Part shown: positions 4,261 through 61,865 of the stretch, piece after piece
Layout of the letters: the number at the start of each line of letters is the position of its first letter
Position numbering within the stretch: the first letter of the stretch is position 1
Source: Pyrus communis
Lineage: Eukaryota > Streptophyta > Magnoliopsida > Rosales > Rosaceae
Direction: 5' to 3'
Length of the DNA stretch: 64,000 nucleotides
NCBI RefSeq assembly: GCF_963583255.1
Contig: NC_084810.1
Location: 9,445,853-9,509,852, forward strand
Program-made: the position numbers and the translations under genes
The notes under the pieces: model-generated
Told to the model about the DNA's origin: nothing
What the model saw: the letters and a program-made list of their open reading frames with translations, nothing else
The model's database searches: none

Positions 4261-5290
4261 AGCCGAGAGCTTATTGTCTCAGAGAGACCCGAATCAAGCA
4301 GGGGTGAGGGTACGCGCGCGTGTATGTTATCGTTTCGTGTACTCGCTCATTCTGTTTTACAACGCATTGGGTGGGCGTACACCTGTTTGGTTTCTTCTTA
4401 AACCACTTTTGGTGACTTTTTGGACTCACTCTCAATTTTTTGTCATCACAAAAATTTGATGACACATACCAAAGCATATTGCCATTTTTGAAGATCAGGT
4501 TGGGGGCGGGATCCTAGGCACGTTAATATATAACATTTTGAGTTAACATTAACATTTTCAGCCCTCGTTGTATATCAAGATAGTGTAATTTCTGCTATAT
4601 TCCTGGTCAATCATTGCAAATTTCTCAATTAGAAAAAAAAACATATATGTTAATGTGAGATTTGGCTACAATGCTTACATGTATTCAATAGAAACATCTC
4701 AACGATCAGATGAAGACCATATTAAATATATGTAAATATTGTAATCAGTTACATTAATGTGTGTTGGACGACTAAAATCTATTGACAATATAAGATATAA
4801 CAAATCAATTTATAGGTCAACGGCCACACATCCAGATAAGACCTTTAAATTAACGTCAGAATAAGAAAATTTTGATATTGACAAAATTTCACATAAAGGA
4901 CTTAAAGTGAGAGACAAATGTTAGGTCATTTTATTGTTACTTGGGGAAAAAGAATAAATGGTTAGAGGGTTGGGGAAGGCAGAAAGTTACATCAAACGTA
5001 GATCTAGATGGTATAATTAAAGTTTACATAGTATAATTGTATTGACTGGCATTTTTCATTACTTATTATACAATATAAAATGATGGTGCCATGGTTTACA
5101 TTGCATGTCAACTTCGTACAGAAGATTTGGTTTGTCCCACCCTGAGCTCCTTTGAAGTAAGTTATAATCCAATGACAAAAGAAACAAATATGTATAAAAA
5201 TATGGACCAGAAAGAGTGGTCTTTGGTGATTAAAATAGTAAGCTAGTATAGCAAGTACGTGCTTTCTACAACTATTCTTGCTTTCAAGAG
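4261..5290. other. Spacer, no gene recognised
   Basis: AT-rich sequence upstream of the fimbrin leader. I see no conserved coding frame, no terminal repeats and no target duplications. The distal fimbrin promoter presumably lies in its first few hundred bases. Confidence 0.6.
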
Positions 5291-5559
5291 ATTAGTTGAC
5301 ATCAATATTGTTTTTTTCTTTGGTTAGTAAAGAAATGGGGAATACAAGCCAGAGCTAACTCACAACATCAGAGAAAATAAAGTGAGATCGAAAAATCTCA
5401 GAAATAATATCTATAATCGATGTGAAGCCTAAAATAATTCCAAAATTTCTAGAGGGCGACGTGTAGACTTTCGCTTGAGAAAGACAAGATTACCCTCATT
5501 GAATGTGCAGGCTTCTCAAATGCTCTTACGTGCAACTTAGCTCTCCTAAAGGTCCAAAC

Positions 5560-6060
5560 AGTTGAATACGACTGCTCACAGCTTACCTGCTTATGGCAAG
5601 TAAACTCTAAGGCATTAAAGATAAGGATTAATTACCAAATCCTATCTTTAATACATTCCCAATTGAAGATTGACTCAACTCAAGTAGTAATCCATATTTT
5701 AATCAATTAGATACTTCCACCATTATCTCAAGATATTATTTCCTATTTAATATTTGGAGAATATTATTTCCATACACCTTGGCCAATAGGATGCCGTCAT
5801 ATGTAGGGTAAAACCCTAACCTCTCTACTATATATTTCTCAATTTCTACCAAATTTCTGTATGTTTTTGCTACCCCTAAAAGCCCTAAACACATTATTTT
5901 CAAAGAAACTAACTTAGGCATTGGAGTATCCATTGGCTAACCTCCCCACCTCGTGGGCGCGTGAAGCTTAGGTCTTTGATCGTGTGATTGTTTTGCATCA
6001 ACAAGCGCTTATTCAATCCAATCAGGAGATTTATCAATCACATAAACGCCAATATCAATT
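5560..6060 (+). mobile_element. LTR-like remnant (solo LTR or small LTR element fragment)
   Basis: A TATA-like box (CTACTATATATTTCTC, about 5825) is followed about 85 bases later by CTAACTTAGGCATTGGAG and then a CT/GTG-rich stretch. This order is the R/U5 signature of many plant LTRs, where a CTAACTTGANCGTCGGAG-type motif follows the promoter. I could not find TG..CA ends, a partner LTR, a primer-binding site or a target duplication. Boundaries are approximate, and a solo LTR or a truncated copy is equally possible. Confidence 0.45.
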
Positions 6061-6772
6061 TAAAACTTAAGTTTGCTAATATTAACACTGTTTTAATATC
6101 TCTTCAGACACTGACATTTTCAACAATTTTTTTTTTCTTCTTGTTAGAAATTTTGCAATAGCCTTATACAAGAGACGAACTTACTTACTTGCAACACAAT
6201 ATGTATTGGTAAGGACGAGATTAACCATATTATTCAATTCGGTTTTTTTTTTTTTTCCCAAGTGGAGCATGGTACCACTCCCGCACTTAAGCTCATTTCA
6301 TGTCAGTTATTCTTCACACACACAAACACGCCGTAAGCTCATTTGCTAAAGCAACTTTTACCAATTATAAACTGTTTGGTTTGGAAATAACCCAATCAAA
6401 GTTGATCAATTCAGCGACACTCAATTGGCTAAGTTTGAACTAAATTTTTCTTTAGATGAAGGATCAAATTGGCTCATCAATCTTTCAAACTCAATAAAGT
6501 CCGATCTCGATTCTCCTTTTCCCACTCTTGATTGTAAAAATGAAAAAGAACTCAGATAAAATTACAGTTTGCCCCCTCAATTTTCATCTAAATTCAAATT
6601 CATACAATTTTTTTTTTAATTTTTTCAATATCATACAAGCTCACTATTCCGTACCAACGTCGTGCAACTGTCTCGTTTCTGTTAGTTCCTTTGTTTACTA
6701 CTTATGTGGCCATTTTAAAGTCCCTCCCCATAGACTTCTTCCTCTCTTACTTCATCTTCATGCTTGCAACCT

Positions 6773-23165: not shown

Positions 23166-25002
23166 AATGGACATGTGAAAAGGTTGAGATAGATTAGTCA
23201 GTGAAGATGGCTGTTTTTTTTTCATTATTGACCTTTCCCCAAATTTTGGTCTTTCATTCCATTTCGATTATGGTCTCAGAAACATCACAATTAATTGTGC
23301 ACAATCTTTCTTTTTACTTGCATAATATGGACATCACAAAGAACTTTATGGAGTATCAAACTAAAGCACATCATAACCTGGATTTTGAAGGTGATATTTC
23401 CCTAAAGAATTTTGTTGAAGGCGAGTGCGCGCAATGACAAAATGTTAGAAGATATAACGGATAGTGAAAAGATTGTTGTGTTTCATTCCAAAATATAAAA
23501 AGAATTCATTCCAACAATTGGCTTGGAGTTTGAAACAGAAGTTCAAGCATATAATTTTTACAAGACTTATGCATATCATGTTGGCTTTGGCATTAGAAGA
23601 AGTAATGCACGTAGAAGGGAAGACGACACGTTCAAAGACTGGCTTTTTGTTTGCTCTTGCTTAAGGTTACCGTGGACCTGATAAACGTGATGCTAATGTT
23701 CAACATCATCGTCTTGAGATTAGATTTGGGTGCTAAGCAAAGCTGCAAATAAATTCTCTCATACCTGGTAAGTATCATGTGGTTGACTTTGCTGTCGAGC
23801 ATACACATAGGACAAGTCCATCTAACACACATTTTTTTAGAGCTCACAGGAGCATTAGTGTTGCTCAAAAAACCTTAGCTGATATAGCTGATAGTTCAGG
23901 AATTCCTCCAAAAGCAACCATTGGTTTTTTGAGTAGACAAGCTAGTGGCCGTGAAAATCATGGGTTTATTCCTGAGGGTTAAAGATAGGGGATACTGGCA
24001 GAGTGTTGGAATATTTGCAACAAATGCAATTGAATGATCCCAATTTTTTTTTTATGCAATACAAGTGGATGAAGATGATCTGATAACTAACATTTTTTGG
24101 ACAGATGCAAAAATGATGGTTTGATTATGATTATTTTGGTGATGTGGTATGTTTTGATACAACCTATAGGAAAAATAAAGAAGGAAGACTTTTGCTATGT
24201 TTGTTGGTGTGTATAATCATAAGCAAACAATTATATTTGGAGCTGCATTATTGTATGTTGAGACTGCCTCAATTTTGATGTGGTTGTTTGATACTTTTGT
24301 CAAGGTTATGTCATGAAAGAGACCACAAACCATTCTTATAGACAAAGATGCTACAATGGCTAAAGCATTACTTGAAACATGGCCATATCATCGATTATGC
24401 ATTTGGCATATATATATCAAAATGCTACGAAGCACCTTAGTAGTGTTTTTGAAGAGTTTAAGGATTTTTCCAAAGATTTTAGCCATTGCATACATGATTA
24501 TGAGGAGGAAGAAGAGTTTATAAATGCTTGGAGTGACATGCTTGAAAAATATAATCTCAAAAGTGATGATTGGTTATGTGGAATGGTTCATATAAAAGAG
24601 AAATGGGCTTTGGTTTATGGACGATATCATATTTGTGCTGATATCACCACCACCTAACGTAGTGAAAACATGAATAGTTCTCTAAAGAGGTATGCCAATT
24701 ACAAACATAATTTGTGGCGTCTTTTCAATCATTTTCAAAGACTAGTTGAGGATCACAGTTATGAAGAATTAAAGGTCGACTTTGAAGCAAGTCAAAGTTC
24801 TCTAGCGTTGTCATTTCCGATTGAAATCTTGAAGCATGCAACTAGCATTTACACACTAAAAGTGTACTTTATTTCAGTGTATTTTAGAATGAGCTATGTA
24901 AAGCTCATGATTATGTGTTGAACTTCTTGGGCGAGTGGTACAATGAGCAAATATGGACTTGCTCCTCATGGAAGACATGTATACCATATTGTCACATATG
25001 AC

Positions 25003-28000
25003 TAGACCTGGCAAACGGGTCGTGTCTGTCGTGTTCGTGTCGTTTTCGTGTAACACCTGTTATCTTAACGGGTCGTGTCGTGTCACACCCGTTATCTTAA
25101 CGGGTCCTTAACAGGTCGTGTCACTTTACCCAACGGGTAAAGTGACCCGACCCGTTATGACCCGTTATGAACCGTTAAGAAAAAAATATATTTTTTTACA
25201 ATTTGCACATACCACACATTGCGACATAAATATTACTTGAAAACATTAAAACATTTCTCGTTCAAGTACTATATCTACACTCGAAAATGAAAGCCTAATA
25301 AAAAAAATAATACATACACTACTAATCTATTACAAATATTTTAAATTTAAATTGAAGATCGAATTCATTCATTGTATTCATATAGGGTCAAGGAGTGTAG
25401 TTATAAAAAATCATCAAAATCGGAGTTAAAATAACCGTTAAATCTTGATTTTTCGTTTATAACCGTCGAAAAGCTTTGTCCCGTTACTTGATCTCTGAAT
25501 GTTTTTTTTTTTGTGATTTTTTGCTGATGTGATCTCCAAGCATATACAAACAATTTTGACGGTTTGGATCGTTGAAATTAGTTTTGGAGAATTCGTAAAA
25601 CGATAGATTGACTAACACTTAGAGTTTATTTATACTTTTATTAAGTATAACATAAGATTTTGTGGTATCCACTTGTGTAAATATTTTAAATTGAAGATCG
25701 AATTCATTCATTGTATTCATATAGGGTCAAGGAGTGTAGTTATAAAAAATCATCAAAATCGGAGTTAAAATAACCGTTAAATCGTGATTTTTCGTTTATA
25801 ACCGTTGAAAAGCTTTGTCCCGTTACTTGATCTTTGAATGTTTTTTTTTTGTGATTTTTTGCTGATGTGATCACCAAGCATATACAAACAATTTTGACGG
25901 TTTGGATCGTTGAAATTAGTTTTGGAGAATTCGTAAAACGATAGATTGACCAACACTTAGAGTTTATTTATACTTTTATTAAGTATAACATAAGATTTTG
26001 TGGTATCCACTTGTGTAAATATTTTAAATTGAAGATCGAATTCATTCATTGTATTCATATAGGGTCAAGGAGTGTAGTTATAAAAAATCATCAAAATCGG
26101 AGTTAAAATAACCGTTAAATCTTGATTTTTCGTTTATAACCGTTGAAAAGCTTTGTCCCGTTACTTGATCTTTGAATGTTTTTTTTTTGTGATTTTTTGC
26201 TGATGTGATCTCCAAGCATATACAAACAATTTTGACGGTTTGGATCGTTGAAATTAGTTTTGGAGAATTCGTAAAACGATAGATTGACTAACACTTAGAG
26301 TTTATTTATACTTTTATTAAGTATAACATAAGATTTTGTGGTATCCACTTGTGTAAATATTTTAAATTGAAGATCGAATTCATTCATTGTATTCATATAG
26401 GGTCAAGGAGTGTAGTTATAAAAAATCATCAAAATCGGAGTTAAAATAACCGTTAAATCGTGATTTTTCGTTTATAACCGTTGAAAAGCTTTGTCCCGTT
26501 ACTTGATCTTTGAATGTTTTTTTTTTTTGTGATTTTTTGCTGATGTGATCTCCAAGCATATACAAACAATTTTGACGGTTTGGATCGTTGAAATTAGTTT
26601 TGGAGAATTCGTAAAACGATAGATTGACTAACACTTAGAGTTTATTTATACTTTTATTAAGTATAACATAAGATTTTGTGGTATCCACTTGTGTAAATAT
26701 TTTAAATTGAAGATCGAATTCATTCATTGTATTCATATAGGGTCAAGGAGTGTAGTTATAAAAAATCATCAAAATCGGAGTTAAAATAACCGTTAAATCT
26801 TGATTTTTCGTTTATAACCGTTGAAAAGCTTTGTCCCGTTACTTGATCTTTGAATGTTTTTTTTTTGTGATTTTTTGCTGATGTGATCTCCAAGCATATA
26901 CAAACAATTTTGACGGTTTGGATCTTTGAAATTAGTTTTGGAGAATTCGTAAAACGATAGATTGACTAACACTTAGAGTTTATTTATACTTTTATTAAGT
27001 ATAACATAAGATTTTGTGGTATCCACTTGTGTAAATATTTTAAATTGAAGATCGAATTCATTCATTGTATTCATATAGGGTCAAGGAGTGTAGTTATAAA
27101 AAATCATCAAAATCGGAGTTAAAATAACCGTTAAATCGTGATTTTTCGTTTATAACCGTTGAAAAGCTTTGTCCCGTTACTTGATCTTTGAATGTTTTTT
27201 TTTTTTGTGATTTTTTGCTGATGTGATCTCCAAGCATATACAAACAATTTTGACGGTTTGGATCGTTGAAATTAGTTTTGGAGAATTCGTAAAACGATAG
27301 ATTGACTAACACTTAGAGTTTATTTATACTTTTATTAAGTATAACATAAGATTTTGTGGTATCCACTTGTGTAAATATTTTAAATTGAAGATCGAATTCA
27401 TTCATTGTATTCATATAGGGTCAAGGAGTGTAGTTATAAAAAATCATCAAAATCGGAGTTAAAATAACCGTTAAATCTTGATTTTTCGTTTATAACCGTT
27501 GAAAAGCTTTGTCCCGTTACTTGATCTTTGAATGTTTTTTTTTTGTGATTTTTTGCTGATGTGATCTCCAAGCATATACAAACAATTTTGACGGTTTGGA
27601 TCTTTGAAATTAGTTTTGGAGAATTCGTAAAACGATAGATTGACTAACACTTAGAGTTTATTTATACTTTTATTAAGTATAACATAAGATTTTGTGGTAT
27701 CCACTTGTGTAAATATTTTAAATTGAAGATCGAATTTATTCATTGTATTCATATAGGGTCAAGGAGTGTAGTTATAAAAAATCATCAAAATCGGAGTTAA
27801 AATAACCGTTAAATCGTGATTTTTCGTTTATAACCGTTGAAAAACTTTGTCCCGTTACTTGACCTCTGAATGTTTTTTTTTTGTGATTTTTTGCTGATGT
27901 GATCTCCAAGCATATACAAACAATTTTGACGGTTTGGATCGTTGAAATTAGTTTTGGAGAATTCGTAAAACGATAGATTGACTAACACTTAGAGTTTATT

Positions 28001-29501
28001 TATACTTTTATTAAGTATAACATAAGATTTTGTGGTATCCACTTGTGTAAATATTTTAAATTGAAGATCGAATTCATTTATTGTATTCATATAGGGTCAA
28101 GGAGTGTAGTTTTAAAAAATCATCAAAATCGGAGTTAAAATAACCGTTAAATCGTGATTTTTCGTTTATAACCGTTGAAAAGCTTTGTCCCGTTACTTGA
28201 TCTTTGAATGTTGTTTTTTTGTGATTTTTTGCTGATGTGATCTCCAAGCATATACAAACAATTTTGACGGTTTGGATCGTTGAAATTAGTTTTGGAGAAT
28301 TCGTAAAACGATAGATTGACTAACACTTAGAGTTTATTTATACTTTTATTAAGTATAACATAAGATTTTGTGGTATCCACTTGTGTAAATATTTTAAATT
28401 GAAGATCGAATTCATTCATTGTATTCATATAGGGTCAAGGAGTGTAGTTTTAAAAAATCATCAAAATCGGAGTTAAAATAACCGTTAAATCGTGATTTTT
28501 CGTTTATAACCGTTGAAAAGCTTTGTCCCGTTACTTGATCTTTGAATGTTTTTTTTTTGTGATTTTTTGCTGATGTGATCTCCAAGATATACAAACAATT
28601 TTGACGGTTTGGATCGTTGAAATTAGTTTTGGAGAATTCGTATGCCATCAATCAAGTTCCCCGTGTGTGTGTGTATATATATATTTATTAAGTAGATTTA
28701 AATCTATTTATTTTGTACGTATAAATTATAATTGACTGGTACATGGAATAGTACATACATCACGTGTCACGTGTTCATTATAAAAATAGTGAGATATGTC
28801 ATGACAGTCATGTGTGTGATAAAAAGTTAATAACTTAAAAAAAAAAAAAAAAATTTCTCACCACTTCTATTAATTTTCATTTTTCCCTCTCTTTTTTGTT
28901 TCCTTTTCAACTTTTTCTTATCATTTTCACTTTTTCCTCCAACATCTTTCCCTAATTCCCTCACTTTTTTGTTTTATTTTCAACTTTTCTTAACATTTTC
29001 ATTTTCCCTCCATTTTTTTTTTCAAAAAGGGCGGCAAGTTGGCAAATGCATTGATCATGCATATTAAATTATTAATTAATATGCATTATAGTTTTTATAA
29101 AATTTAATATATATATATATATATATAATTAGTATAGATAGACTTAATATTTTGGGGGTATAATTATTATAGTATATATAATTATTATAATTATTATAAA
29201 TTTTATAGTTAATTTAATATATATATATATTTATTATAATTTTTAGGGGTATAAAATTGTAAAATTAATGTATATAATTATTACAGTATTTTTTTTAGGG
29301 TTATAAAATTATAAAAATAATATTCTGCTTATCGTGTATCGTGTTTACCCACGTGTATACCCGACCCAACCCGTTATCTTAACAGGTGCTTATCGGGTTA
29401 CCCGATAAGACCCGATTCGTTATCGTGTCGACCCAAACACCTGTTAATTTCGTGTCGTGTCGTGTCGGGTTATCGAGTCGTGTCAGAAATTGCCAGGTCT
29501 A
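25003..29501 (+). mobile_element. Repeat-filled non-autonomous hAT-like element, copy 1
   Basis: Perfect 12-bp inverted ends TAGACCTGGCAA / TTGCCAGGTCTA and a perfect 8-bp target duplication CATATGAC (24995-25002 and 29502-29509), both typical of hAT. Subterminal regions carry many copies of ACGGGTCGTGTC-like and CCCGTTATC-like motifs in both orientations, as expected for transposase binding. The interior is about 3.3 kb of tandem repeats plus an AT-rich stretch (28650-29330). There is no transposase. It sits inside the MULE transposase gene. Confidence 0.92.
25351..28640 (+). repeat. Tandem array, about ten units of 338 bp, inside hAT-like copy 1
   Basis: GGGTCAAGGAGTGTAG recurs at about 25386, 25723, 26061, 26399, 26739, 27078, 27418, 27757, 28094 and 28433. 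Units differ by only a few bases each plus the length of one poly-T run. A T/G difference (AAATCTTGATT versus AAATCGTGATT) alternates in units 1-8, giving a two-unit period of about 677 bp. Small open frames of about 72 codons recur on the minus strand but are cut off in each unit and look incidental. Confidence 0.95.
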
Positions 29502-31556
29502 CATATGACTCAATCAACAACACCATATCTTGTAGTTGTAAGAAGTTCAAGTTTGTCAGAATGTTGTGTGCTCATGACTCAATACATTATGAACAAATGG
29601 ACAAGAAACGTTAAGGATAAAAACGTGAAATCTACTTGCATGACTATAAGTGAAGTGACCCAAAGTTAGAAGTAGCAAGGCGCTATAGAGAGTTATGCAG
29701 TTGAATATTCAACTAGCAACAAGGGCAACATAATCTCAACAAGCATATGAAATTGCTATAAGGGAACTTACAAACACATTGGCAGATATCGATGCATCCT
29801 TCAATGAAAACAAAATTCAAAAAGCACCTCAAGTCCTCTACCCAGATGTTAATAATGTGTCTCCGCTTGAAGAAAGTATTTATGTTGATGGCAATCATAA
29901 CACTAGAGTAAGAGAAATTAAAACTAAAGAAAGATCAATCAGTGAATCTAGTAGGCCAAAAAGTGCTTTGGAGAAGGCCACAAAAAAGAAAAGTGCTAGA
30001 AAAAAGGCATTGCACATATTAAGTGCTCCAGCCACACAAAGTGTTATGGCTTCCACCCTCCCAATCCAACAGGTATGCCTGATCTTTAATTAATTGACAT
30101 GATTTCATAAGGGTGCATTAAAATTAGTTACTTATTTGTATTAATCAACTACCATGAACAGACTGCTTGTAATTTAACCATGAGTGTGCCAATCCAAACT
30201 ATGAATCAATTACCTACAAACTTTGTTCAGGTATTCATGAAGTTTCATTATCAGTTTTTAACATGTGTTTGCTTATCATTTCTTTTTCTTCTTAATTTTA
30301 TTGAGTCATTTTTTATTTTCTTTGTCCAACCCATGCACTGCATAGCTTCATGGTGGCAATAATTTAAACACAAGTTTTCCAATCCATGAGCAAAATGTAA
30401 TGCTTCCACAAATGCAATTTAGACAACCATTTCAATTTGCTCAGATATTATCACTTTAAAGTGTATTTAGTAATTCACCTTATCATTATTTTAAGTATGT
30501 TACTTGTTGCACTTATTTTTATTTATGTTGTTTGCCCACATATCTACACCAGCAAAACCACATGAGAGGCTATTACCGATGGCAGTTATCGACAATGTTA
30601 CTCGAACATGGCTACCTTATCAGAAGTAATATAGTTAATCTAAAAACTTAAACTACTTTATTTTGAGTAATTTGTACATAAACAATGATACATTTTATTT
30701 CATTCTATGTTTTATTAATGCAAACATGATTGGAAGAAGAACTAGATTTGCTTGGATCTCAATTTACAAGCCAATAAGAGTCATCCTATGGACGTACAAG
30801 ATGATAAGTGAGATGAGATTAAAGGATGAGAGGAAAAGGATTGTAGCACTAACAATTTTGACCATGTCTTTTTCAAAGAGTAATGCTAATATGTTCTAGA
30901 CGCATAGTAGAGTATGAGTGAGTAAAATTACTTGGGTTCAGGATTTCACTCAATTCTTGTCATATTTTTGTGATATTCCTAAGCTGACAAGCACATAAAT
31001 TGTTGCCATCAATTTATAAATGCAATTTCATGACCTTTACTCATGTATCTAGTTTCATTGCTACCAGAGCTATTGGTATTTTCATCTATTATGATTATAT
31101 CAAGGTATTGTGATCTTTCAATTTGTATTAGCACAGATTAGTCGATATCAATTAGTAGTTCAGTTTCTTTGGATGAGATCATGAATTATTTGATAAAAAC
31201 TCCAGAATTTGAACATACTTAAAGCCTCTTCGTTCATAGATGTTCATCACACTTCGATTGTAATTGAACACATGTTTGTGCTCGATTAAAACCATGCACA
31301 ACATCAGTGGTTTCGATGAATCTTTTCATGGCGCTTCTCTATGCTTATACTCTACTTGATCATTTGTGGGAGGAAATTCAATAGATGAATATCTTTGCAC
31401 ATGCTTTTTTGGCTCCATAGTTTAGCTTTTGTTGTTCTATGTTATGCTCAACACTTTGTACGTGAATTTTTGGCTGCACAGTACAATGCTTGGACATGGA
31501 GACTGAGAATTCGAAATGGAATTAAAGACCAAAATATGGGCAAAGGCCAACAATGG

Positions 31557-31716: not shown

Positions 31717-33814
31717 TGATAGGAGCATATTTATGCGACTTAATTGGCTTGTTCTCATGCATTTACGTTGTGTTTCTTTAGTTATTTTAGTCCTTTATGC
31801 CATTTTCGTGTGTTTCTAGGTTCATATGGCTAAGGAAGCAAAAAGAAGCAATTTGGAGCATTCTAGAGCATTTTTGGGCCAAGATTGGATAGTGCAAGCA
31901 TGGAGGCATGAGGATGGACGAATTTGAAGGCTTGAATTCAGTTAGGGAGCTACAAGGGGGCCTAAAAACCTTATTTCTAGAAGGCTTTATCTATTCACAC
32001 ATGGTGCCTAATTCCTACCTTGTCCTAGCCGTCCTACCTTGTCTCCTAGCCGTCCTACCTTGTCTCCTAGCCGTCCTAGCTTGTCACTAGCCGTCCTACC
32101 TTGTCTCCTAGCCGTCCTACCTTGTCTCCTAGCCGTCCTACCTTGTCACTAGTCGTCCTAGCTTGTCACTAGCCGTCCTACCTTGTCTCCTAGCCGTCCT
32201 AGCTTGTCTCCTAGCCGTCCTAGCTTGTCTCCTAGCCGTCCTAGCTTGTCACTAGCCGTCCTACCTTGTCTCCTAGCCGTCCTAGCTTGTCACTAGCCGT
32301 CCTAGCTTGTCTCCTAGCCGTCCTACCTTGTCTCCTAGCCTTCCTAGCTTGTCCAAGCTACACACATTTATCCTTTATGTGTTTCATGTATAGAATTTCT
32401 GGTACAAAAAACCTTTTGGTTTCAACTAAGTTCAAAACCTTTCCTAGCCCTATAAATAAGGCTTTGCAGCAAGGCACTGGGGGATCACTCATTCACCCAA
32501 TTTTCGTCCATTCATCTAGCCACACCACTCTACACATCCTAAAATCCTAGAAACACAATTCCAGCCAAACACTACACCTTGCCGTGCCTATCCTCCATCC
32601 AATTCCATAATCCCTGATCCTAAAACACATCCCAACCATCCCATCCACCTTTGTGCCGTAGTAAGGAGAAAGAAGGAAAGACTCTTGGATGCTCAAGCTT
32701 CGTCGTTGGTGCATTCTAGGTGTAATTTGTTTTATGATTTCAATGTTTAATTTATTTTCCTTTCATTTTGCTATGAACATGAGTGGCTAAACCCCTATTG
32801 GTTAGGGGTGATTTCGAAGCCATAACTATGTGTGCAAGTTGATTTGATAAATTCCAGTTATGAGTTCTTGAATCGTGAATGCAATTGGCTTAACTGTGCG
32901 AGTAATAACGTATTTGTGTTTGTTAATTAGGGGTCGACACTTAATTGGCTTGCATGAATATGATGCTAGAATATAAGTTTGTTTCACATAATTGTCACAC
33001 ACTTATATTCACAAGTAGTGAAGGTTGCTAGTCACAATCGCGTTAAGTTCAATTCCTAGCATAAGTGTCATGATGTCATAGTCACAAGTGCTTTGTCAAT
33101 GCTTATAGTTTTCATTGAACGTAATGATCTTTGATTGTATCTTTATTATGATGTCATGTAAGGAACTTTTGAAGAATGCTTTGGGTTGTCGTATGATGTC
33201 ATCCAATTCAATAACACAAGGAAAACTTGAGAATTAACTAGTGATGTCACGGTTAATTTGGGGCATTGTCATTCATAATTCTATGAAGGAATAACTGGAA
33301 ATCGAGTCATTTGCATACTTGTCATGTGTGGAGAAAGAACCCCTAACTAGTCCATCATCCATTAAAAACCCCAAAAATGTTTCAAAATCAGTTTTACTTT
33401 GCAATCTATTTTCTCAACTTTAATTTCGTCCAAATCAAATCCCCCTTTACTTTGAAGTCTCAATTTAGTTAGAAATTGTTTTGGTTCATGTTTTTAAGTG
33501 TTTTGAGTCAAGTTTTCAACCAATTTCGTCCAAATTAGTGTAGGTGCTCAAAACTGCCCAGAAAGTGGTTTTTAGGCAGTTTTGAGTCTTCTAGTTGCTG
33601 TTTTGAGTTTTTGTTTTGTTTTAGTGTTTTAACTTTGGTTTTTCATTCTTTGAGTCCAAATTAGTGTTTTTAATTTTGTTTTGGAGTCCTTAGGTCAGTT
33701 TTCAAGAGTTTAGCAATCCCTCCTAATCCCCGGTTTTGAACGATCCCTACTTACATACTTTGCTACAATTGTCAGAAGAGGGTTTAATTTGTGTGCTTAA
33801 TATATTTCGCATCA
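31717..33814 (+). repeat. 5' LTR of the LARD-like element
   Basis: 2098 bases. A TATA box (CCTATAAATAAGG, about 32448) marks the likely promoter. A minisatellite of 20-21-bp units lies just upstream at 32016-32357. Confidence 0.93.
32016..32357 (+). repeat. Minisatellite in the 5' LTR, about 16 units of 20-21 bp
   Basis: Variants of CTAGCCGTCCTACCTTGTCTC and TAGCCGTCCTAGCTTGTCAC repeat head to tail. They yield runs of AVLPCLL/AVLACLL in one frame, which I regard as incidental. Confidence 0.95.
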
Positions 33815-33838
33815 AATTTTTGGCGCCGTTGCCGGGGA

Positions 33839-35941: not shown

Positions 35942-38038
35942 TGATAGGAGCATATTTATGCGACTTAATTGGCTTGTTCTCATGCATTTACGTTGTGTTT
36001 CTTTAGTTATTTTAGTCCTTTATGCCATTTTCGTGTGTTTCTAGGTTCATATGGCTAAGGAAGCAAAAAGAAGCAATTTGGAGCATTCTAGAGCATTTTT
36101 GGGCCAAGATTGGATAGTGCAAGCATGGAGGCATGAGGATGGACGAATTTGAAGGCTTGAATTCAGTTAGGGAGCTACAAGGGGGCCTAAAAACCTTATT
36201 TCTAGAAGGCTTTATCTATTCACACATGGTGCCTAATTCCTACCTTGTCCTAGCCGTCCTACCTTGTCTCCTAGCCGTCCTACCTTGTCTCCTAGCCGTC
36301 CTAGCTTGTCACTAGCCGTCCTACCTTGTCTCCTAGCCGTCCTACCTTGTCTCCTAGCCGTCCTACCTTGTCACTAGTCGTCCTAGCTTGTCACTAGCCG
36401 TCCTAGCTTGTCTCCTAGCCGTCCTAGCTTGTCTCCTAGCCGTCCTAGCTTGTCACTAGCCGTCCTACCTTGTCTCCTAGCCGTCCTAGCTTGTCACTAG
36501 CCGTCCTAGCTTGTCACTAGCCGTCCTAGCTTGTCTCCTAGCCGTCCTACCTTGTCTCCTAGCCTTCCTAGCTTGTCCAAGCTACACACATTTATCCTTT
36601 ATGTGTTTCATGTATAGAATTTCTGGTACAAAAAACCTTTTGGTTTCAACTAAGTTCAAAACCTTTCCTAGCCCTATAAATAAGGCTTTGCAACAAGGCA
36701 CTGGGGGATCACTCATTCACCCAATTTTCGTCCATTCATCTAGCCACACCACTCTACACATCCTAAAATCCTAGAAACACAATTCCAGCCAAACACTACA
36801 CCTTGCCGTGCCTATCCTCCATCCAATTTCATAATCCCTGATCCTAAAACACATCCCAACCATCCCATCCACCTTTGTGCCGTAGTAAGGAGAAAGAAGG
36901 AAAGACTCTTGGATGCTCAAGCTTCGTCGTTGGTGCATTCTAGGTGTAATTTGTTTTATGATTTCAATGTTTAATTTATTTTCCTTTCATTTTGCTATGA
37001 ACATGAGTGGCTAAACCCCTATTGGTTAGGGGTGATTTCGAAGCCATAACTATGTGTGCAAGTTGATTTGATAAATTCCAGTTATGAGTTCTTGAATCGT
37101 GAATGCAATTGGCTTAACTGTGCGAGTAATAACGTATTTGTGTTTGTTAATTAGGGGTCGACACTTAATTGGCTTGCATGAATATGATGCTAGAATATAA
37201 GTTTGTTTCACATAATTGTCACACACTTATATTCACAAGTAGTGAAGGTTGCTAGTCACAATCGCGTTAAGTTCAATTCCTAGCATAAGTGTCATGATGT
37301 CATAGTCACAAGTGCTTTGTCAATGCTTATAGTTTTCATTGAACGTAATGATCTTTGATTGTATCTTTATTATGATGTCATGTAAGGAACTTTTGAAGAA
37401 TGCTTTGGGTTGTCGTATGATGTCATCCAATTCAATAACACAAGGAAAACTTGAGAATTAACTAGTGATGTCACGGTTAATTTGGGGCATTGTCATTCAT
37501 AATTCTATGAAGGAATAACTGGAAATCGAGTCATTTGCATACTTGTCATGTGTGGAGAAAGAACCCCTAACTAGTCCATCATCCATTAAAAACCCCAAAA
37601 ATGTTTCAAAATCAGTTTTACTTTGCAATCTGTTTTCTCAACTTTAATTTCGTCCAAATCAAATCCCCCTTTACTTTGAAGTCTCAATTTAGTTAGAAAT
37701 TGTTTTGGTTCATGTTTTTAAGTGTTTTGAGTCAAGTTTTCAACCAATTTCGTCCAAATTAGTGTAGGTGCTCAAAACTGCCCAGAAAGTGGTTTTTAGG
37801 CAGTTTTGAGTCTTCTAGTTGCTGTTTTGAGTTTTTGTTTTGTTTTAGTGTTTTAACTTTGGTTTTTCATTCTTTGAGTCCAAATTAGTGTTTTTAATTT
37901 TGTTTTGGAGTCCTTAGGTCAGTTTTCAAGAGTTTAGCAATCCCTCCTAATCCCCGGTTTTGAACGATCCCTACTTACATACTTTGCTACAATTGTCAGA
38001 AGAGGGTTTAATTTGTGTGCTTAATATATTTCGCATCA
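35942..38038 (+). repeat. 3' LTR of the LARD-like element
   Basis: 2097 bases and nearly identical to the 5' LTR. I noticed three substitutions outside the minisatellite (near 36693, 36829 and 37631). The TATA box is near 36673. Confidence 0.93.
36241..36581 (+). repeat. Minisatellite in the 3' LTR, rearranged relative to the 5' LTR
   Basis: Same units as the 5' LTR copy and nearly the same total length, but one C-type unit is missing after the TAGTCG unit and one extra GTCAC-type unit is present further on. Confidence 0.85.
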
Positions 38039-38335
38039 ATGCATATGAATATTTGGCTCCATGGTTCAATGCTTGGACATGGAAACGAAGAACTTTGGAA
38101 GCCATAGTGAGGAAGAAGGAGAGTCGTTCGACAAAGATATTTGAATGAGTCCAAATGTGCATGCCTTCTGCAATTTCTTTTTCCAAAAATTTAGCAGATA
38201 ACAGAAGTTTAAGGATAACAAAAAAAATAACAAAGTTAGGATTAGTGAGTAGGTGGACACATGTCGGATATTTAGAGGGGCACATAGGGGCCACATGGGT
38301 AATTGGGTGCAGAAAATTTAGACTCTAGCATTCCC

Positions 38336-38629: not shown

Positions 38630-38986
38630 TGTTGACTAGTATTGACTAAAGAAGTGTCATGTAAGCTGCTATGTCATCATTAATACGGTTGAGAATTAGT
38701 TGGAGTTGTTATATGTAGCTTACACTGTAAGAAAGTTAGTTAAGCTATTCGACTTGTACAAAAAGCTCATCACAGCTCATTGATTGTATCAAGTCTTCAT
38801 TTCATCAATACAAAATCTCTCACACTTTCTCTCTCTATCCTTTGATATTCTTTCTGTTGTTCTTTCCCTGTTTTTCTTCAATTCCATATGCTACTGTTAA
38901 GATGGTATCGAGCCATGTGTCGATCGATTGAGAATTTTTCTTACGCTAAGCATTTCTAGGTAAATCGTTGAAGTTCTTGGAGTTTT

Positions 38987-39824
38987 TGTGAACACGAAAA
39001 ATTCCTGAAACAAGAAACAAGAATACGTGTACAAAATATATTTTTGTGTTTAATGATTTTTGGGTTACAATCTCTTTGTAATTTGATCCTCTGATTCTAT
39101 CTTCGTAGGGTGTAAGTTTGTGGATGAGCTGTTGATCCAAAGGGCCGTCGGGGCTTGGTCTAAGGATGAACAGTTGATGAACGGATCTTCGAGGGGCGTT
39201 GGGCTTGATCTTGAAGAATGGGTGTATGGGTTTGTGGATGAGCTGTTGATCCAAAGGGCCGTCGGGGCTTGATCTAGGGATGAACAGTTGATGAACGGAT
39301 CTTCGAGGGCTTTTGGGCTTGATCTTGAAGGTTGATGGATGAGCAGATCTTCAAGGGCTTTTGGGCTTAATCTTGAAGAACGATTGGATGTGTGGATTTG
39401 TTGAGGTTGTTGATCCAAAGGGCCGTTGGGGCTTGATCTTAGGATGAACGGATGATGAACGCTTCTCTTCAGATTTGACGAAGAACTAAGATAGCTTTCT
39501 TGGTCCTTCGAGATTTGCTTGAGAGCTTTAGAGTTTCAAAGCTTCAAAGTTTTGGTGTAATGTAAATTTCCTTCTTTCTTTCTTCCAAAATGAATGCCTT
39601 GGCTTCCTATTTATAGAATTCCAAAACTTGATTTTTGGATTTAAATAATCAGATGAAATAAATCATTTCTGCCAGGTATTGACATGTGTCCTATTTGATG
39701 ACTTTTCCAATTTATTTCGATTTTTTGTTGAGTCACACGCTACATGTAAAATTTATGTGATACGTGAGCGTTGAAATTTTAACTATTGGTCAACATTCAT
39801 TTCACCGAAATTTCGATGTCCACA
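38987..39824 (-). repeat. 3' LTR of the Tat-like element
   Basis: 838 bases. Contains internally repeated blocks of the GATCCAAAGGGCCGTCGGGG type, shared with the other LTR. Confidence 0.9.
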
Positions 39825-45583: not shown

Positions 45584-47443
45584 TCAAACGATCTTAGAGA
45601 GGCATTCCTTGCAATCTTCATAGCAAGGAGTCTTGACTGAGTGATTGAAGAAGTCTTTGGGGAAGAAATCGCGCATCGTGATGGCAACGGACGATCTTTG
45701 TGTCATAACTTCATCATCCTCAACACTTTCATGTAGCTTTGAAGGTTGACAGTAGCTGCTTTGCCCCCTTTCCGATTGGTGAACTTGTGGAGGAGACCTA
45801 TGTTTCTTGTGCATTTTCTTTGGAGTGACATAAGTCCATCCTTCAACTTCACTTGACTTGACTGACATGGTTTTGGAGCATGCCCCCAGCGGTTGCGGTG
45901 AAGATTTTGAGTTCAAAGAGCCAGAAGTGACGGAGGTATAGTTTGATTTCACCACATCATTAAGATCTAGCTCGATGATCCCTTTCTGAGCCAACTTCAT
46001 AATGAGATCTTTTAGCACAAAGCACTTTTCCGTCGGATGACCAATGAAGCGGTGGAATTTACAGTACCTTGGACTGTCAGTACGGTTCATCTCTTCCGGC
46101 CGTTTACACTCAGGTAGGTCGATCACCTTTTTTTCCAGCAAGTCATCTAACATGGCAACCACGTCAGAGTCGAGGAATGGATAAGTCTTCTCCTCAAGCT
46201 CTTTCAAAGTGCGTCTACGTATCTCTTGATCACGAAAAGCTTCGGTTTGAATCGCCTTGCCTCGTGTATGGGTTTTGACTGGAGTTGTGTTGACAAGTGC
46301 GGCAATCTGCAAGTCCTTCTCTTCCACAGTCCGTGTGAGCTTTGCGATTGCTTCATTTATCTGAGCTAGCTGCTCCTCGATTGAAGTTGCTCCAGTGGTC
46401 ATGACTTGCATGGTTGTACTGCCGCTCGAATTAGCGTCGGAGAGTAGGGACTTTGAGTATTTCCTCGGGCTTTCATCTTCTTTACCTTCTTGAACCGTGA
46501 TGTAGAAAACATCTTGGATCTCCTCTTCAGTGCCGTTCTCTTGGGTTTGTTGGCATGAAGATTTGCCAGTGTGGATGATGATGCGCCTCCTTACCTTCAG
46601 TGGTCCTTTTGTGTCGACCTCTAGGATTGCTTGGCGCTTCATCCTTGAAGGAATCAAGCTTCGAGTGTCGTCTTTTTCTCCTAACCCATCGAGCTTTTCT
46701 TCCTTTGGTGTTGTCTTCCTCTTTCCAAAAGGCTTACCATTATCTTCAAATCTTTCTGAAGTTGATCGTCGCAGAGGAGAGATAGCTGTGTTGCTTTGTT
46801 TCTTAGGCTTTAACAACCTTTCAAAAACAGAGCTTTGGGATGTCGGCGCGTTAAGCCTCTTGAAGACAGAGGTTCGGTCTTGACCACCAATGCGATTAAG
46901 CACTGAAGTTCTGGAGCTTGAATGGCTCATCCTATCGAAGACCGACGTCCGAGGGGAGGGTTTAGGCTCTTCTTGGTCTTGTTCAATGCTCACGCTGATG
47001 TGTTGAGCGCTAGTTTTCTTCACTTTGCTTGAAATTTTCACGGGTGCATTTAGTGTGAAGCCAAGTCCAGCTTTGTTGTTGTCAACTCCATAATCATGCT
47101 CCTTCAACTTCTTTTGAGTCTCGGTGAGGTAGCGATCTTTGTCGTTGACGGTGTTCGAAACCTTCTTTCCAAGATTTGAAGAGGAAGCAAAGTCATGCCT
47201 AGCCTTTGACATGAGTTCGTAGGCATTTGGGTTGAAGCCTTCTTCAGTCCTCTTAGTTGGAAGAGAGCTTGGTTTCACTATGACACCATGTTGCGCCTCC
47301 AGACAGTTGATGAGTCCGGCGGTTTGCAAGTTTTTCTCCTCTGCAGTCTTTATCAGCCTTGCAATTGTTTCCTTCATCTGAACCAGCTGTTTTTCAATGG
47401 AGGTAGTGCCGATAGTCATGACTTGTTCTTTGTTTGAAGCCAT
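45584..47443 (-). CDS. Composite gag-like ORF of the Tat-like Ty3 element
   Basis: 619 residues from MASNKEQVMTIG, the first ATG inside the primer site. An in-frame ATG further upstream lies in the LTR and is not preferred. A module near residues 7-50 (TTSIEKQLVQMKETIARL) recurs near 395-440 (ATSIEEQLAQINEAIAKL), so two gag N-termini seem fused. Between them are at least four RTSVFDR-like repeats. Toward the C-terminus come a Cys/His segment YCKFHRFIGHPTEKC and LIMKLAQKGIIELDLND, typical of Ty3 gag C-terminal sequence. I see no protease, RT or integrase motif. A gag-only product could form particles if expressed, but the canonical capsid core seems absent. Confidence 0.75.
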   Translation of the reverse strand: MASNKEQVMTIGTTSIEKQLVQMKETIARLIKTAEEKNLQTAGLINCLEAQHGVIVKPSSLPTKRTEEGFNPNAYELMSKARHDFASSSNLGKKVSNTVNDKDRYLTETQKKLKEHDYGVDNNKAGLGFTLNAPVKISSKVKKTSAQHISVSIEQDQEEPKPSPRTSVFDRMSHSSSRTSVLNRIGGQDRTSVFKRLNAPTSQSSVFERLLKPKKQSNTAISPLRRSTSERFEDNGKPFGKRKTTPKEEKLDGLGEKDDTRSLIPSRMKRQAILEVDTKGPLKVRRRIIIHTGKSSCQQTQENGTEEEIQDVFYITVQEGKEDESPRKYSKSLLSDANSSGSTTMQVMTTGATSIEEQLAQINEAIAKLTRTVEEKDLQIAALVNTTPVKTHTRGKAIQTEAFRDQEIRRRTLKELEEKTYPFLDSDVVAMLDDLLEKKVIDLPECKRPEEMNRTDSPRYCKFHRFIGHPTEKCFVLKDLIMKLAQKGIIELDLNDVVKSNYTSVTSGSLNSKSSPQPLGACSKTMSVKSSEVEGWTYVTPKKMHKKHRSPPQVHQSERGQSSYCQPSKLHESVEDDEVMTQRSSVAITMRDFFPKDFFNHSVKTPCYEDCKECLSKIV

Positions 47444-47515
47444 GGACTGTGCTTGAATATCTTGAACGGAGACAGAGATGAGAGGTAGAGATGGTCCAAC
47501 TGGGCGTGCCAAATT

Positions 47516-48403
47516 TGTGAACACGAAAAATTCCTGAAACAAGAAACAAGAATACGTGTACAAAATATATTTTTGTGTTTAATGATTTTTGGGTTACAAT
47601 CTCTTTGTAATTTGATCCTCTGATTCTATCTTCGTAGGGTGTAGGTTTGTGGATGAGCTGTTGATCCAAAGGGCCGTCGGGGCTTGGTCTAAGGATGAAC
47701 AGTTGATGAACGGATCTTCGAGGGGCGTTGGGCTTGATCTTGAAGAATGGGTGTATGGGTTTGTGGATGAGCTGTTGATCCAAAGGGCCGTCGGGGCTTG
47801 ATCTAGGGATGAACAGTTGATGAACGGATCTTCGAGGGCTTTTGGGCTTGATCTTGAAGACTGGGTGTATGGATTTCTTCAAGGGGCTTTTGGGCTTGAT
47901 CTTGAAGGTTGATGGATGAGCAGATCTTCAAGGGCTTTTGGGCTTAATCTTGAAGAACGATTGGATGTGTGGATTTGTTGAGGTTGTTGATCCAAAGGGC
48001 CGTTGGGGCTTGATCTTAGGATGAACGAATGATGAACGCTTCTCTTCAGATTTGACGAAGAACGAAGATAGCTTTCTTGGTCCTTTGAGATTTGCTTGAG
48101 AGCTTTAGAGTTTCAAAGCTTCAAAGTTTTGGTGTAATGTAAATTTCCTTCTTTCTTTCTTTCCAAAATGAATGCCTTGGCTTCCTATTTATAGAATTCC
48201 AAAACTTGATTTTTGGATTTAAATAATCAGATGAAATAAATCATTTCTGCCAGGTATTGACATGTGTCCTATTTGATGACTTTTCCAATTTATTTCGATT
48301 TTTTGTTGAGTCACACGCTACATGTAAAATTTATGTGATACGTGAGCGTTGAAATTTTAATTATTGGTCAACATTCATTTCACCGAAATTTCGATGTCCA
48401 TAG
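47516..48403 (-). repeat. 5' LTR of the Tat-like element
   Basis: 888 bases, 50 longer than its partner. The extra length is one additional copy of a repeat around GGGCTTGATCTTGAAG (near 47850-47900). A handful of substitutions separate the two LTRs, implying a fairly young insertion. Confidence 0.9.
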
Positions 48404-57105: not shown

Positions 57106-57113
57106 GTTATGCG

Positions 57114-57939
57114 TAGGCCTGGCAATTCCTAACACGATCCGATAACCCGACACGACACGACACGAAATTAACAGGTGTTCAGATCGACACGATAACGAAT
57201 CGGGTCGTTATCAGGTAACCCGATAAGCACCTGTTAAGATAACGGGTTGATTCGGGTATACACATGGGTAACACGATACACGATAAGCAGAATATTATTT
57301 TTATAATTTTATAACCCTAAAAAAATGTTGTAATAATTATATACATTAATTTAACAATTTTATACCCCTAAAAACTATAATAAATATATATATATATATT
57401 AAATTAACTATAAAGTCTATAATAATTATATTAATTATATATACTATAATAATTATACCCCCAAAATATTAACTATCTATAATAATTATATAATTATATA
57501 ATTATATATATATATATTTAATTTTGAATTAAATTTTATAAAAACTATAATAATTATTAATTAATATGCATGATGCATCCATTGATTTGATTCCATTCCA
57601 TTCATGCTGCTCTTTTTGAAGAAAAATAGAGGGAAAATGAAAATGATAAGAAAAGTTGAAAATGAAACAAAAAAGCGAGGGAATTAGGGAAAGATGTTGG
57701 AGGGAAAAGTGAAAATTATAAGAAAAGTTGAAAAGGAAACAAAAAAGAGAGGGAAAAATGAAAATTAATAGAAGTGGTGAGAATTTTTTTTTTTTTTTAA
57801 GTTATTAACTTTTTATCACACATATGACATATCTCACTATTTTTATAATGATACATGTGATATACTACTCCGTGTACCAATCAATTACACGTACAAAATA
57901 AATAGATTTAAATCTACTTAATAAATAAATATATGTATA

Positions 57940-57971
<32 letters not shown>

Positions 57972-60900
57972 CCATTGGAACTTGATGGGATACGAATTCT
58001 TCGAAACTAATTTGAACGATCCTAACAGTCAAACTTGTTCGTATATGCTTTGAGATCACATCAGCAAAAACTCGCAAAAAACAAACATTCAGAGATCAAG
58101 TAACGTGACAAAACTTTTCGACGCTTATAAACGAAAAATCACGATTTAACAGTTATTTTAACTTCGATTTTGATGATTTTTTATAGCTACACTCCTTAAC
58201 CCTATATGAATACAGTGAATGAATTTGATCTTCAATTTAAAATATTTACACAAGTGGATACTACAAAATTTTATGTTATAATTGATGAAAGTATAAATAA
58301 ACTCTAAGTGTTAGTTAATCTATTGTTTTTATGGGATACGAATTCTCTTAAACTAATTTCAACGATCACAACCATCAAACTTGTTTGTATATGCTTTGAG
58401 ATCACATCAGCAAAAAATCACAAAAAACAAACATTCAGAGATCAAGTAACGGGACAAACCTTTTCGACGCTTATAAACGAAAAATCACGATCTAACGGTT
58501 ATTTTAACTCCGATTTTGATGATTTTTTACAGGTACACTCCTTTACCCTATATGAATACAATGAATGAATTCGATCTTCAATTTAAAATATTTACACAAG
58601 TGGATACCACAAAATCTTATGTTATACTTAATGAAAGTATAAATAAACTCTAAGTGTTAGTCAATCTATCGTTTTGATGGGATACGAATTCTCCAAAACT
58701 AATTTCAACGATCCAAACCGTCAAACTTGTTTGTATATGCTTGGATATCACATTAACAAAAAATCACAAAAAACAAACATTCAGAGATCAAGTAACGGGA
58801 CAAAGCTTTTCGACGGTTATAAACGAAAAATCATGATTTAACGGTTATTTTAACTCCGATTTTGATGCTTTTTTACAGGTACACTCCTTGACCCTATATG
58901 AATACAATGAATGAATACGATATTCAATTTAAAATATTTACACAACTGGATACCACAAAATCTTATGTTCTACTTAATGAAAGTATAAATAAACTTTAAG
59001 TGTTAGTCAATCTATCGTTTTGTTGGGATACGAATTCTCCAAAACTAATTTCAACGATCCAAACCGTCAAACTTGTTTGTATATGCTTGGAGATCACATC
59101 AAAAAAAAATCACAAAAAACAAACATTCAGAGATCAAGTAACGGGAAAAAGCTTTTCGACGGTTATAAACGAAAAATCACGATTTAACGGTTATTTTAAC
59201 TCCGATTTTGATGATTTTTTACAGGTACATTCCTTGACCCTATATGAATACAATGAATGAATTCGATCTTCAACTTAAAATATTTACACAAGTGGATACC
59301 ACAAAATCTTATGTTATACTTAATGAAAGTATAAATAAACTCTAAGTGTTAGTCAATTTATCGTTTTGATGGGATACGAATTCTCCAAAACTAATTTCAA
59401 CGATCCAAACCATCAAACTTGTTTGTATATGCTTGGAGATCACATCAGCAAAAAATCATAAAAAACAAACATTTAGAGATCAAGTAACGGGACAAACCTT
59501 TTCAACGGTTATAAACAAAAAATCACGATTTAACGGTTATTTTAACTCCGATTTTGATGATTTTTTTACAGGTTCACTCATTGACCCTATATGAATACAA
59601 TGAATGAATTCGATTTTCAATTTAAAATATTTACACAAGTGGATACCACAAAATCTTATGTTATACTTAATGAAAGTATAAATAAACTCTTAAGTGTTAG
59701 TCAATCTATCGTTTTGATAGGATACGAATTCTCCAAAACTAATTTCAACGATCCAAACTGTCAAACTTGTTTGTATATGCTTGGAGATCACATCAACAAA
59801 AAATCATAAAAAACAAACATTCAGAGATCAAGTAACGGGACAAACCTTTTCGACGGTTATAAACGAAAAATCACGATTTAACGGTTATTTTAACTCCAAT
59901 TTTGATGATTTTTTACAGGTACACTCCTTGACCCTATGTGAATACAATGAATGAATTCAATCTTCAATTTAAAATATTTACACAAGTGGATACCACAAAA
60001 TCTTATGTTGTACTTAATGAAAGTATAAATAAACTCTAAGTGTTAGTTAATCTATCGTTTTGTTGAGATACGAATTCTCCAAAACTAATTTCAACGATCC
60101 AAACTGTCAAACTTGTTTGTATATGCTTGGAAATCACATCAACAAAAAATCACAAAAAAACAAACATTCAGAGATCAAGTAACGGGACAAAGCTTTTCGA
60201 CGGTTATAAACAAAAAATCACGATTTAACGGTTATTTTAACTCTGATTTTGATGATTTTTTTACAGCTACGCTCCTTGACCCTGTATGAATACAATGAAT
60301 GAATTCGATCTTCAATTTAAAATATTTACACAAGTGGATACCACAAAATCTTATGTTATACTTAATGAAAGTATAAATAAACTCTAAGTGTTAGTCAATC
60401 TATCGTTTTGTTGGGATACGAATTCTCCAAAACTAATTTCAACGATCCAAACTGTCAAACTTGTTTGTATATGCTTGGAGATCACATTAACAAAAAATCA
60501 CAAAAAACAAACATTCAGAGATCAAGTAACGGGACAAACCTTTTCGACGGTTATAAATGAAAAATCACGATCTAACGGTTATTTTAACTCTGATTTTGAT
60601 GATTTTTTACAGCTACACTCCTTGACCCTATATGAATACAATGAATGAATTTGATCTTCAATTTAAATTTTTTTTTATAAGTGGGTACCACAAAATCTTA
60701 TGTTGTACTTAATGAAAGTATAAATAAACTCTAAGTGTTAGGTAATCTATCGTTTTGTTGGGATACGAATTCTCCAAAACTAATTTCAACGATCAAAACC
60801 GTCAATCTTGTTTGTATATGCTTGGAGATCACATCAACAAAAAATCACAAAAAACAAACATTCAGAGATCAAGTAACGGGACAAAGCTTTTCGACGGTTA

Positions 60901-61865
60901 TAAACGAAAAATCACGATTTAACGGTTATGTTAACTTCGATTTTGATAATTTTTTTACAGATACACTTCCTGACCCTATATGAATACAATGAATGAATTC
61001 GATCTTCAATTTAAAATATTTACACAAGTGGATACCACAAAATCTTATGTTGTACTGGATGAAAGTATAAATAAACTCTAAGTGTTAGTCAATCTATCGT
61101 TTTGTTGGGATACGAATTCTCCAAAACTAATTTCAACGATCCAAACCGTCAAACTTGTTTGTATATGCTTGGAGATCACATCAACAAAAAATCACAAAAA
61201 ACAAACATTCAGAGATCAAGGAATGGAACAAAGCTTTTCGACGGTTATATACGAAAAATCACGATTTAACGGTTATTTTAATATATTTTTATATGGTATA
61301 GTATTATTATTTTATTTCTTTTCATAATTATTTTGGTAAACTTCTCATAATTTGAATGATTTTTAATGTTTGGTTTTTCTATACTTAGTTTATGCGGAAG
61401 AGAGTTCTGACGTGGAAAACCTTACTGAAAACATCTTCAACATAACTCTTCAAGGCAATAGATGAAGCCAAAGTTTCAATACAATTTCATGATGATCGAT
61501 GTAAATTGAAGATTTTGTAGATAGAGGTGTAAACTTTTGAGAAAGACTTACAATCTTGAAAACAAAAACTCTTTCATTTTGCATATCCTTGCACATTTAA
61601 TATTTGTAATAGATTAGTAGTGTATGTATTATTTTTTTATTAGGCTCTTATTTTCGAATGTAGATATAGTACTTAAACAACAAATGTTTTAATGTTTTGA
61701 AGTAATATTTATGTGGTAATGTGTGATATGTGCAAATTTAAAAAAAAAAAAATATTTTTTTCTTAACGGGTCATAACGGGTGTGACACGACACGACCCGT
61801 TAAGATAACAGGTGTTACACGAAAACGACACGAACACGACAGACACGACCCGTTTGCCAGACCTA
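57114..61865 (-). mobile_element. Repeat-filled non-autonomous hAT-like element, copy 2 (inverted)
   Basis: Ends TAGGCCTGGCAA and TTGCCAGACCTA, with an 8-bp target duplication GTTATGCG (57106-57113) / GTTATGGG (61866-61873), one mismatch. Same architecture as copy 1 but in the opposite orientation: the AT-rich part is on the left (57290-57980) and the tandem array on the right. The subterminal CGGGTCGTGTC-like and CCCGTTAAGATAAC-like motifs are shared. It also has about 270 bases (61290-61560) that copy 1 lacks. No transposase. Confidence 0.9.
57987..61290 (-). repeat. Tandem array, about ten units of 346 bp, inside hAT-like copy 2
   Basis: The marker GATACGAATTCT recurs at about 57989, 58334, 58681, 59028, 59373, 59722, 60068, 60414, 60761 and 61109. 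Units are homologous to the 338-bp units of copy 1 but more diverged from each other. Open frames of about 86 codons beginning MLVNLSF recur in five units. Confidence 0.93.

Follow-up and report, generated by a model that had tools for sequence, protein, structure and literature searches.

The stretch of pear DNA analyzed here, 64,000 nucleotides of Pyrus communis contig NC_084810.1 (hereafter the window; G000:C8:9445853-9509852 in a source assembly of 487 Mb and 29 contigs), contains two transposable elements of the hAT superfamily, each with an interior tandem array of 338- or 346-bp units. It is highly probable that both are non-autonomous members of one hAT family whose parent carried the array together with a transposase gene, the gene having been lost by internal deletion. 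Positions below are window coordinates unless an element or contig is named; L-numbers denote single stretches read from the source genome, and C-numbers denote contigs.

Two array-bearing elements in the window

Copy 1 lies at 25003-29501. Its terminal inverted repeats (TIRs), TAGACCTGGCAA, are exact counterparts at 25003-25014 (plus strand) and 29490-29501 (minus strand), and the same 8 bp, CATATGAC, stand just outside them at 24995-25002 and 29502-29509, a target-site duplication (TSD) of 8/8. In the window, the end 12-mer is matched three times at one mismatch or fewer, against 0.24 expected. Inside the ends follow, on the plus strand, a left subterminal region with AACGG motifs (25015-25345), the array (25346-28642; period 338 bp, 9.7 copies, 98% matches), and an AT-rich right flank that includes the right subterminal region (28643-29489); both regions beside the array align with the transposase-bearing member described below. 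The nine inter-anchor units measure 337-340 bp each, and no open reading frame (ORF) of at least 150 amino acids (aa) lies within the element. The initial annotation, made from the letters of this DNA, had described a hAT-like element with about ten head-to-tail 338-bp units, perfect ends and duplication, and no transposase, and in all these respects it is borne out.

A second family copy, which that annotation had missed, occupies 57114-61865 on the strand opposite to copy 1. Its right-end inverted repeat, TAGGCCTGGCAA, is at 57114-57125 (plus strand), and its left-end repeat, TAGGTCTGGCAA, at 61854-61865 (minus strand). The flanking duplications, GTTATGCG at 57106-57113 and GTTATGGG at 61866-61873, agree at 7/8 positions. 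Between the ends, all on the minus strand, are the right flank (57126-57981), an array of 9.5 units of 346 bp with 94% matches (57982-61281), and a left flank (61282-61853) that holds about 240 bp missing from copy 1. Copy 2 is older than copy 1. A blastn search of the window at E 0.01 found no element piece besides these two.

A transposase-bearing member of the family

In a search for the hAT dimerization domain, in which 150 of 680 candidates were scored, such a domain was found on C17, about 650 bp inward from an exact left end. The element there (L057 and L058 joined, L057/L058 below) measures 7,006 bp, its two 24-base ends are free of mismatches, and it is bounded by GTCGTAGG duplicated 8/8. 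A 569-aa ORF at element positions 1057-2763 has the hAT RNase-H fold (PF14372, 93.2 bits), and a 94-aa ORF at 664-945 has the dimerization domain (PF05699, 103.3 bits), both above cut-off. A zf-BED match of 22.1 bits (cut-off 20.6) appears only when its piece of the 569-aa ORF is scanned alone, and a sequence comparison of this ORF with PDB chains at E 0.001 gave no match.

The same element has an array of about four units at 4872-6246. The gene is on the strand opposite to the array, and the array is therefore 5′ of the gene, between it and the right end. The initial annotation had treated the array as odd cargo in place of a transposase. That view does not survive: L057/L058, with the same ends, carries both, its array lying upstream of the gene, so foreign cargo has not taken the place of the transposase. 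Both window copies align with this element at their margins. The left 338 bp of copy 1 are 95.9% identical to its left 328 bp, and the last 457 bp are 97.4% identical; positions 6-587 of copy 2 align at 83.6% with its positions 6-637, the alignment stopping just before the last transposase ORF (664-945).

Two further places may be recorded here. At G000:C9:34317-39517, a unit array and a hAT dimerization domain lie in a geometry like that of L057/L058, possibly a second element with transposase plus array. At G000:C1:20449762-20455375, two hAT dimerization domains in 807-aa open frames lie on opposite strands, 5 kb apart.

Probable deletion origin of the array-only copies

The young, array-only copy L016 is 99.2% identical to L057/L058 over its left 366 bp and 96.9% identical over 2,158 positions from the array through the right end, including the junction of array and right flank. 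Given this match at both sides, array-only copies are best read as deletion derivatives; copies 1 and 2 are likewise best read as gene-less derivatives that kept the array. At the deletion junction, TTTTTAAGATTG is joined to ACTAACAC of the unit, and the 6-bp microhomology AGATTG stands at both deletion edges in L057 (left side and unit). There are 54 sites of the junction 19-mer, 48 of which have an exact left end no more than 500 bp away, and the control 19-mer does not occur. The left junction of copy 1 differs from the common one and copy 2 retains more of the left flank, so there was more than one deletion.

The course of events that we favor is as follows. The transposase-bearing form holds the 338-bp array 5′ of its gene, between gene and right end. 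Internal deletions would have taken out the gene and brought the left subterminal region up against the array, most commonly within the AGATTG microhomology; deletion, rather than gain of a gene, seems the likely direction. Keeping both terminal regions, the derivatives would be mobile in trans through the transposase of full copies, by cut-and-paste with an 8-bp TSD. The array passes unchanged through transposition, and the number of units would shift by unequal exchange or slippage, sometimes in two-unit steps.

Spread of the family and copying of the array

Genome-wide, the end 12-mer is not enriched (283 sites versus 389 for the reversed control); the 24-base left end, at two or fewer mismatches, is found 334 times versus none for its control. 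From the first 100 places listed for the 12-mer, 16 plus/minus pairs and one same-strand pair were drawn (17 stretches). Fifteen of the 16 pairs are full array elements with an 8/8 TSD, the exception being L012; the same-strand pair, L025, lacks an array. The same full structure was found at 18 of 20 further exact left ends, the remaining two being L027 and L029, and in all three of L046-L048, one of which is a unit locus without a listed end. Together with window copy 1, L049 and L050 (see below), and L057/L058, this gives 40 elements with both ends, an array, and a perfect 8-bp TSD; window copy 2 (TSD 7/8) and L029, in which the array is present and the TSD incomplete, are additional.

The genome has 59 exact left ends, and 35 of the 36 examined have an array. 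Units per element range from 2 to 16, with a mean of 7.7 over 36 array elements, and the longest array read, 16 units in L037, has a perfect TSD. Listing intact copies and counting their units was a step that the initial annotation had proposed, and its suggestion that a hAT-type element carries the array to many sites agrees with 40 two-ended copies at TSDs of their own.

The 8-bp TSD, the short TIRs (12 bp), and the hAT transposase of a same-ended member are features of the hAT superfamily. Subterminal repeats bound by the transposase are another hAT trait, for which AACGG might be a candidate, but its 8 occurrences in the left 180 bp contrast with a single one on the right. Two other classes were considered and rejected. 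Miniature inverted-repeat transposable elements are short non-autonomous elements, under about 0.8 kb, and the array-bearing members, at 1.8-7.0 kb, are too long. The Foldback/Tetris type does not suit a single internal array with 12-bp TIRs and unlike flanks.

Two stretches were seen to hold inserts. In L027 (C3:8575924-8583224), an insert of about 2.2 kb that has TG...CA ends and is flanked by TATAA is, by eye, a solo long terminal repeat (LTR); in L019 (C5:18371679-18377474), about 1 kb with GGGGGCG...CGCCCCC ends lies in the first array unit and is, by eye, a nested PIF/Harbinger-type element.

Sibling copies illustrate how the array travels. In each of the pairs L020/L021, L028/L029, and L030/L031, the two members share a chromosome and lie 42-70 kb from each other at different target sites. 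Within a pair, the elements are 99.85-99.92% identical and have the same unit series; the whole element shows 0-1 mismatches, with gaps at 3-6 positions. Linked transposition thus reproduces the array faithfully. The number of units, in contrast, evolves more quickly than the bases: the flanks of L022 (4 units) and L023 (10 units) are 0.2% different, and those of L014 (10 units) and L015 (8 units) 0.3%. Among 223 units outside the window copies, with first units excluded, divergence is 0.85% within an element and 1.00% between elements, a difference reached by none of 500 permutations. The family may be active at the present day.

The two window arrays differ in age and in composition. Mean unit divergence is 0.9% in copy 1, 6.4% in copy 2, and 5.9% between them, and their unit consensuses are 2.7% different. 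Eight base pairs are present in all nine inter-anchor units of copy 2 and absent from all nine of copy 1, and from this fixed difference we infer that one array, or both, was rebuilt from a single type of unit once the lineages had separated. Copy 1 has a two-unit pattern: no substitution separates inter-anchor units 3 and 5, nor units 4 and 6. Of the 111 changes that copy 2 shows from its own consensus, 47 are C>T or G>A, with C+G making up 31% of the unit, an excess that would fit a methylated, old array. A dimer structure of half-units was rejected: the best half-half scores, 18 and 22, lie below the 95th percentiles of shuffles, 25 and 24.

Units outside the hAT family

A 19-base unit tag has 2,126 exact sites genome-wide, and its control has none. 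The first 100 places listed span C1 as far as 24.1 Mb and fall into 35 loci, with a longest tag span of 3.4 kb. Tag density there is 4.14 per Mb, compared with 4.36 per Mb for the genome, and given this similarity the assembly is not expected to hold any large array with the exact tag. The "seed of satellite DNA" that the initial annotation envisaged was thus not seen: no long (many-kb) array with the exact tag was observed, although diverged, collapsed, or unassembled arrays are possible.

Thirteen of the 35 C1 loci have a listed end within 4 kb, against 0.2 expected; L009, L010, L047, and L048 were read whole, and the others are known by end and units. Six of the 22 loci lacking a listed end were also read. 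L049 and L050 are full hAT elements with 8/8 TSDs, L054 has a left end only, and L051, L052, and L053 lack hAT ends. The initial annotation had held that arrays found widely without these ends would favor a chance insertion; this applies in part, to three of the six loci read, one of them in a CACTA element, and not to L049 and L050. Over the 19 of 35 loci with any evidence, the carrier is hAT in 16, CACTA in 1, and unassigned in 2.

The CACTA element, L051 (C1:6001000-6006500), has CACTACTACAA ends, CACTACTACAATATAGG and CACTACTACAAAAGGGGG, and a 3-bp TSD, GAT/GAT. It carries four complete units with about 96% identity to the 346-bp consensus of the hAT arrays, partial units, and the right flank of the array copied in inverted orientation, and has AT-rich internal sequence in common with the array-less hAT element L027. 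The units of L052 (C1:11134000-11139500) are 87-88% identical to the consensus and those of L053 (C1:4150800-4155300) 77-85%. Both are older arrays, situated amid other clusters of subterminal-type repeats.

Alternative explanations

Several observations weigh against descent of the copies from an array-plus-transposase parent. L057/L058 is the single element with transposase and array that was read whole. Its gene is split into the 569- and 94-aa ORFs, the PF05699 stretch on C17 contains one in-frame TGA, and zf-BED is not among the hits when the 569-aa ORF is scanned in full at E 0.001. Unit arrays occur without hAT ends in L051, L052, and L053. Conversely, L027 lacks an array although its ends are those of the family and its TSD is 8/8, and L012 has 12-mer ends with neither array nor TSD, so the array is not obligatory. 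Unit counts come from one assembly, in which repeats may have collapsed.

That leaves the question of whether the hAT family is the home of the units. An independent satellite might have been captured by several transposon superfamilies, hAT being merely one carrier; we regard this as unlikely. In its favor are the near-consensus units of L051, the diverged units of L052 and L053 among other subterminal-type repeats, and a unit tree in which the root among older units is left open. On that tree (unrooted; 18 of 47 loci with units, L057 left out), however, L051 falls between hAT copies, with L047/L049 on one side and copy 2 plus the young group on the other (ultrafast bootstrap, 99 and 89). Moreover, the AT-rich sequence common to L051 and L027 fits a CACTA element acquiring a piece of a hAT element, and hAT carriers outnumber CACTA by 16 to 1 at the C1 loci with evidence.

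It has been proposed for Galileo and Tetris that repeated units multiply transposase-binding sites and so aid mobilization, and the array could have been retained for this reason. AACGG is dense in the first 180 bp of copy 1 (8 versus 1.45 in shuffles) and mildly enriched in the 338-bp unit (3 versus 0.58 expected, reached by 7 of 500 shuffles), and the 16-unit copy still has a perfect TSD. But the motif was selected post hoc, after several had been tried; it shows no clear enrichment in the 346-bp unit (71 of 500 shuffles reach the count) and no excess in the right 180 bp of the element (1 versus 1.04), and copies with 2-3 units, as well as the array-less L027, moved too. We consider retention for this reason distinctly improbable.

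Chance, whether ends flanking a pre-existing satellite block or one satellite insertion between ends, might draw on the unit arrays that lack hAT ends and was the reading that the initial annotation would have preferred had no other copy shown both ends, but it is refuted by 40 two-ended array copies at their own 8/8 target sites and one junction occurring 54 times, where about 0.2 chance 12-mer pairs are expected genome-wide.

Descent from an array-bearing parent thus remains our preferred account. A more far-reaching reading is that the array might be a traveling satellite module that sits on the promoter side of a transposase-bearing hAT element, grows and shrinks there, and is captured by other superfamilies, such as CACTA; we hold this possible but doubtful. 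If it is true, the satellite library of the genome would be kept and dispersed by several unrelated transposons, not by heterochromatin. In any case, one genome shows the stages together: a transposase-bearing element that has an array, gene-less derivatives that retain it, dozens of insertions of 2-16 units, faithfully copied siblings, and these units in a second superfamily. The variation and dispersal of satellite monomers thereby becomes testable through unit counts per insertion. For Rosaceae genomics, a family with 334 left-end matches is named, whose arrays might otherwise be annotated as scattered minisatellites.

Other features of the window

The joined flanks of copy 1 read through the insertion site as ...HIVTYDSINNTISCSCKKFKFVRMLCAHDS..., which we take to resemble the SWIM finger of FAR1-type genes. 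Pfam SWIM scores are under the cut-off of 19.6 (16.1 bits on the joined flanks, 18.5 on the right flank alone), so a FAR1-like gene as the target of copy 1 is suggestive only. Elsewhere in the window, one ORF has its best protein match in Pyrus x bretschneideri: NEDD8 ultimate buster 1 (96%, with 89% of the query covered). No RNA family at gathering score and no tRNA was found in the window.

Direct repeats of 2.1 kb at 31717-33815 and 35942-38039 are 99.4% identical, and each includes a 21/62-bp tandem array. A young retrotransposon with an internal array, of which these would be the LTRs, probably accounts for them. Those at 38985-39822 and 47514-48400 (94% identical, with 114-bp tandem units) may be the LTRs of another retrotransposon, enclosing a 659-aa ORF (45584-47563).

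Comparison with known systems

DNA transposons with variable internal arrays are already known. We know of no tandem array in the Ac/Ds system of maize comparable to the one described here. In other respects Ac/Ds is a close parallel, with a hAT parent, internal-deletion derivatives moved in trans, and linked transposition (PMC3260210). The gadMor-hAT-1784 MITE of Atlantic cod is likewise hAT derived and transposase-less, with tandem units of 167-169 bp; those units form two TIRs of about 600 bp, whereas here the array is internal and a transposase-bearing member exists (PMC12368964).

Tetris (TIR-220), a foldback element of Drosophila virilis, resembles the present copies in being non-autonomous with variable internal tandem repeats and can seed satellite arrays (PMC4079207). 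Its repeats lie inside the TIRs, with kb-size satellite-like arrays, in contrast to one internal array, short TIRs, and no long satellite found in pear. Another DNA transposon with internal tandem repeats is CACTA-Jozin (PMC7320549). In Arabidopsis, Atenspm/ENSAT1 ties a satellite to the 5′ untranslated region of an autonomous plant DNA transposon, but one that is En/Spm-like (CACTA), not hAT; among the rows covered of the table in that source, there is no hAT (PMC9659126).

A literature search, largely without subscription papers, turned up no hAT element with an array upstream of the transposase that is kept by derivatives. Pokey, a piggyBac element of Daphnia, has repeats upstream of its transposase (PMC3849761). 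It uses a TTAA target and has 2-5 repeats per element, compared with a hAT element and 2-16 units of 338-346 bp. The Pokey repeats are similar to the ribosomal DNA spacer and coevolve with it, whereas the pear unit was traced to transposon-like contexts and no further. Retention of the array by the derivatives also sets the pear family apart from Pokey as described there. What seems new here is a hAT element whose upstream array is kept by its derivatives.

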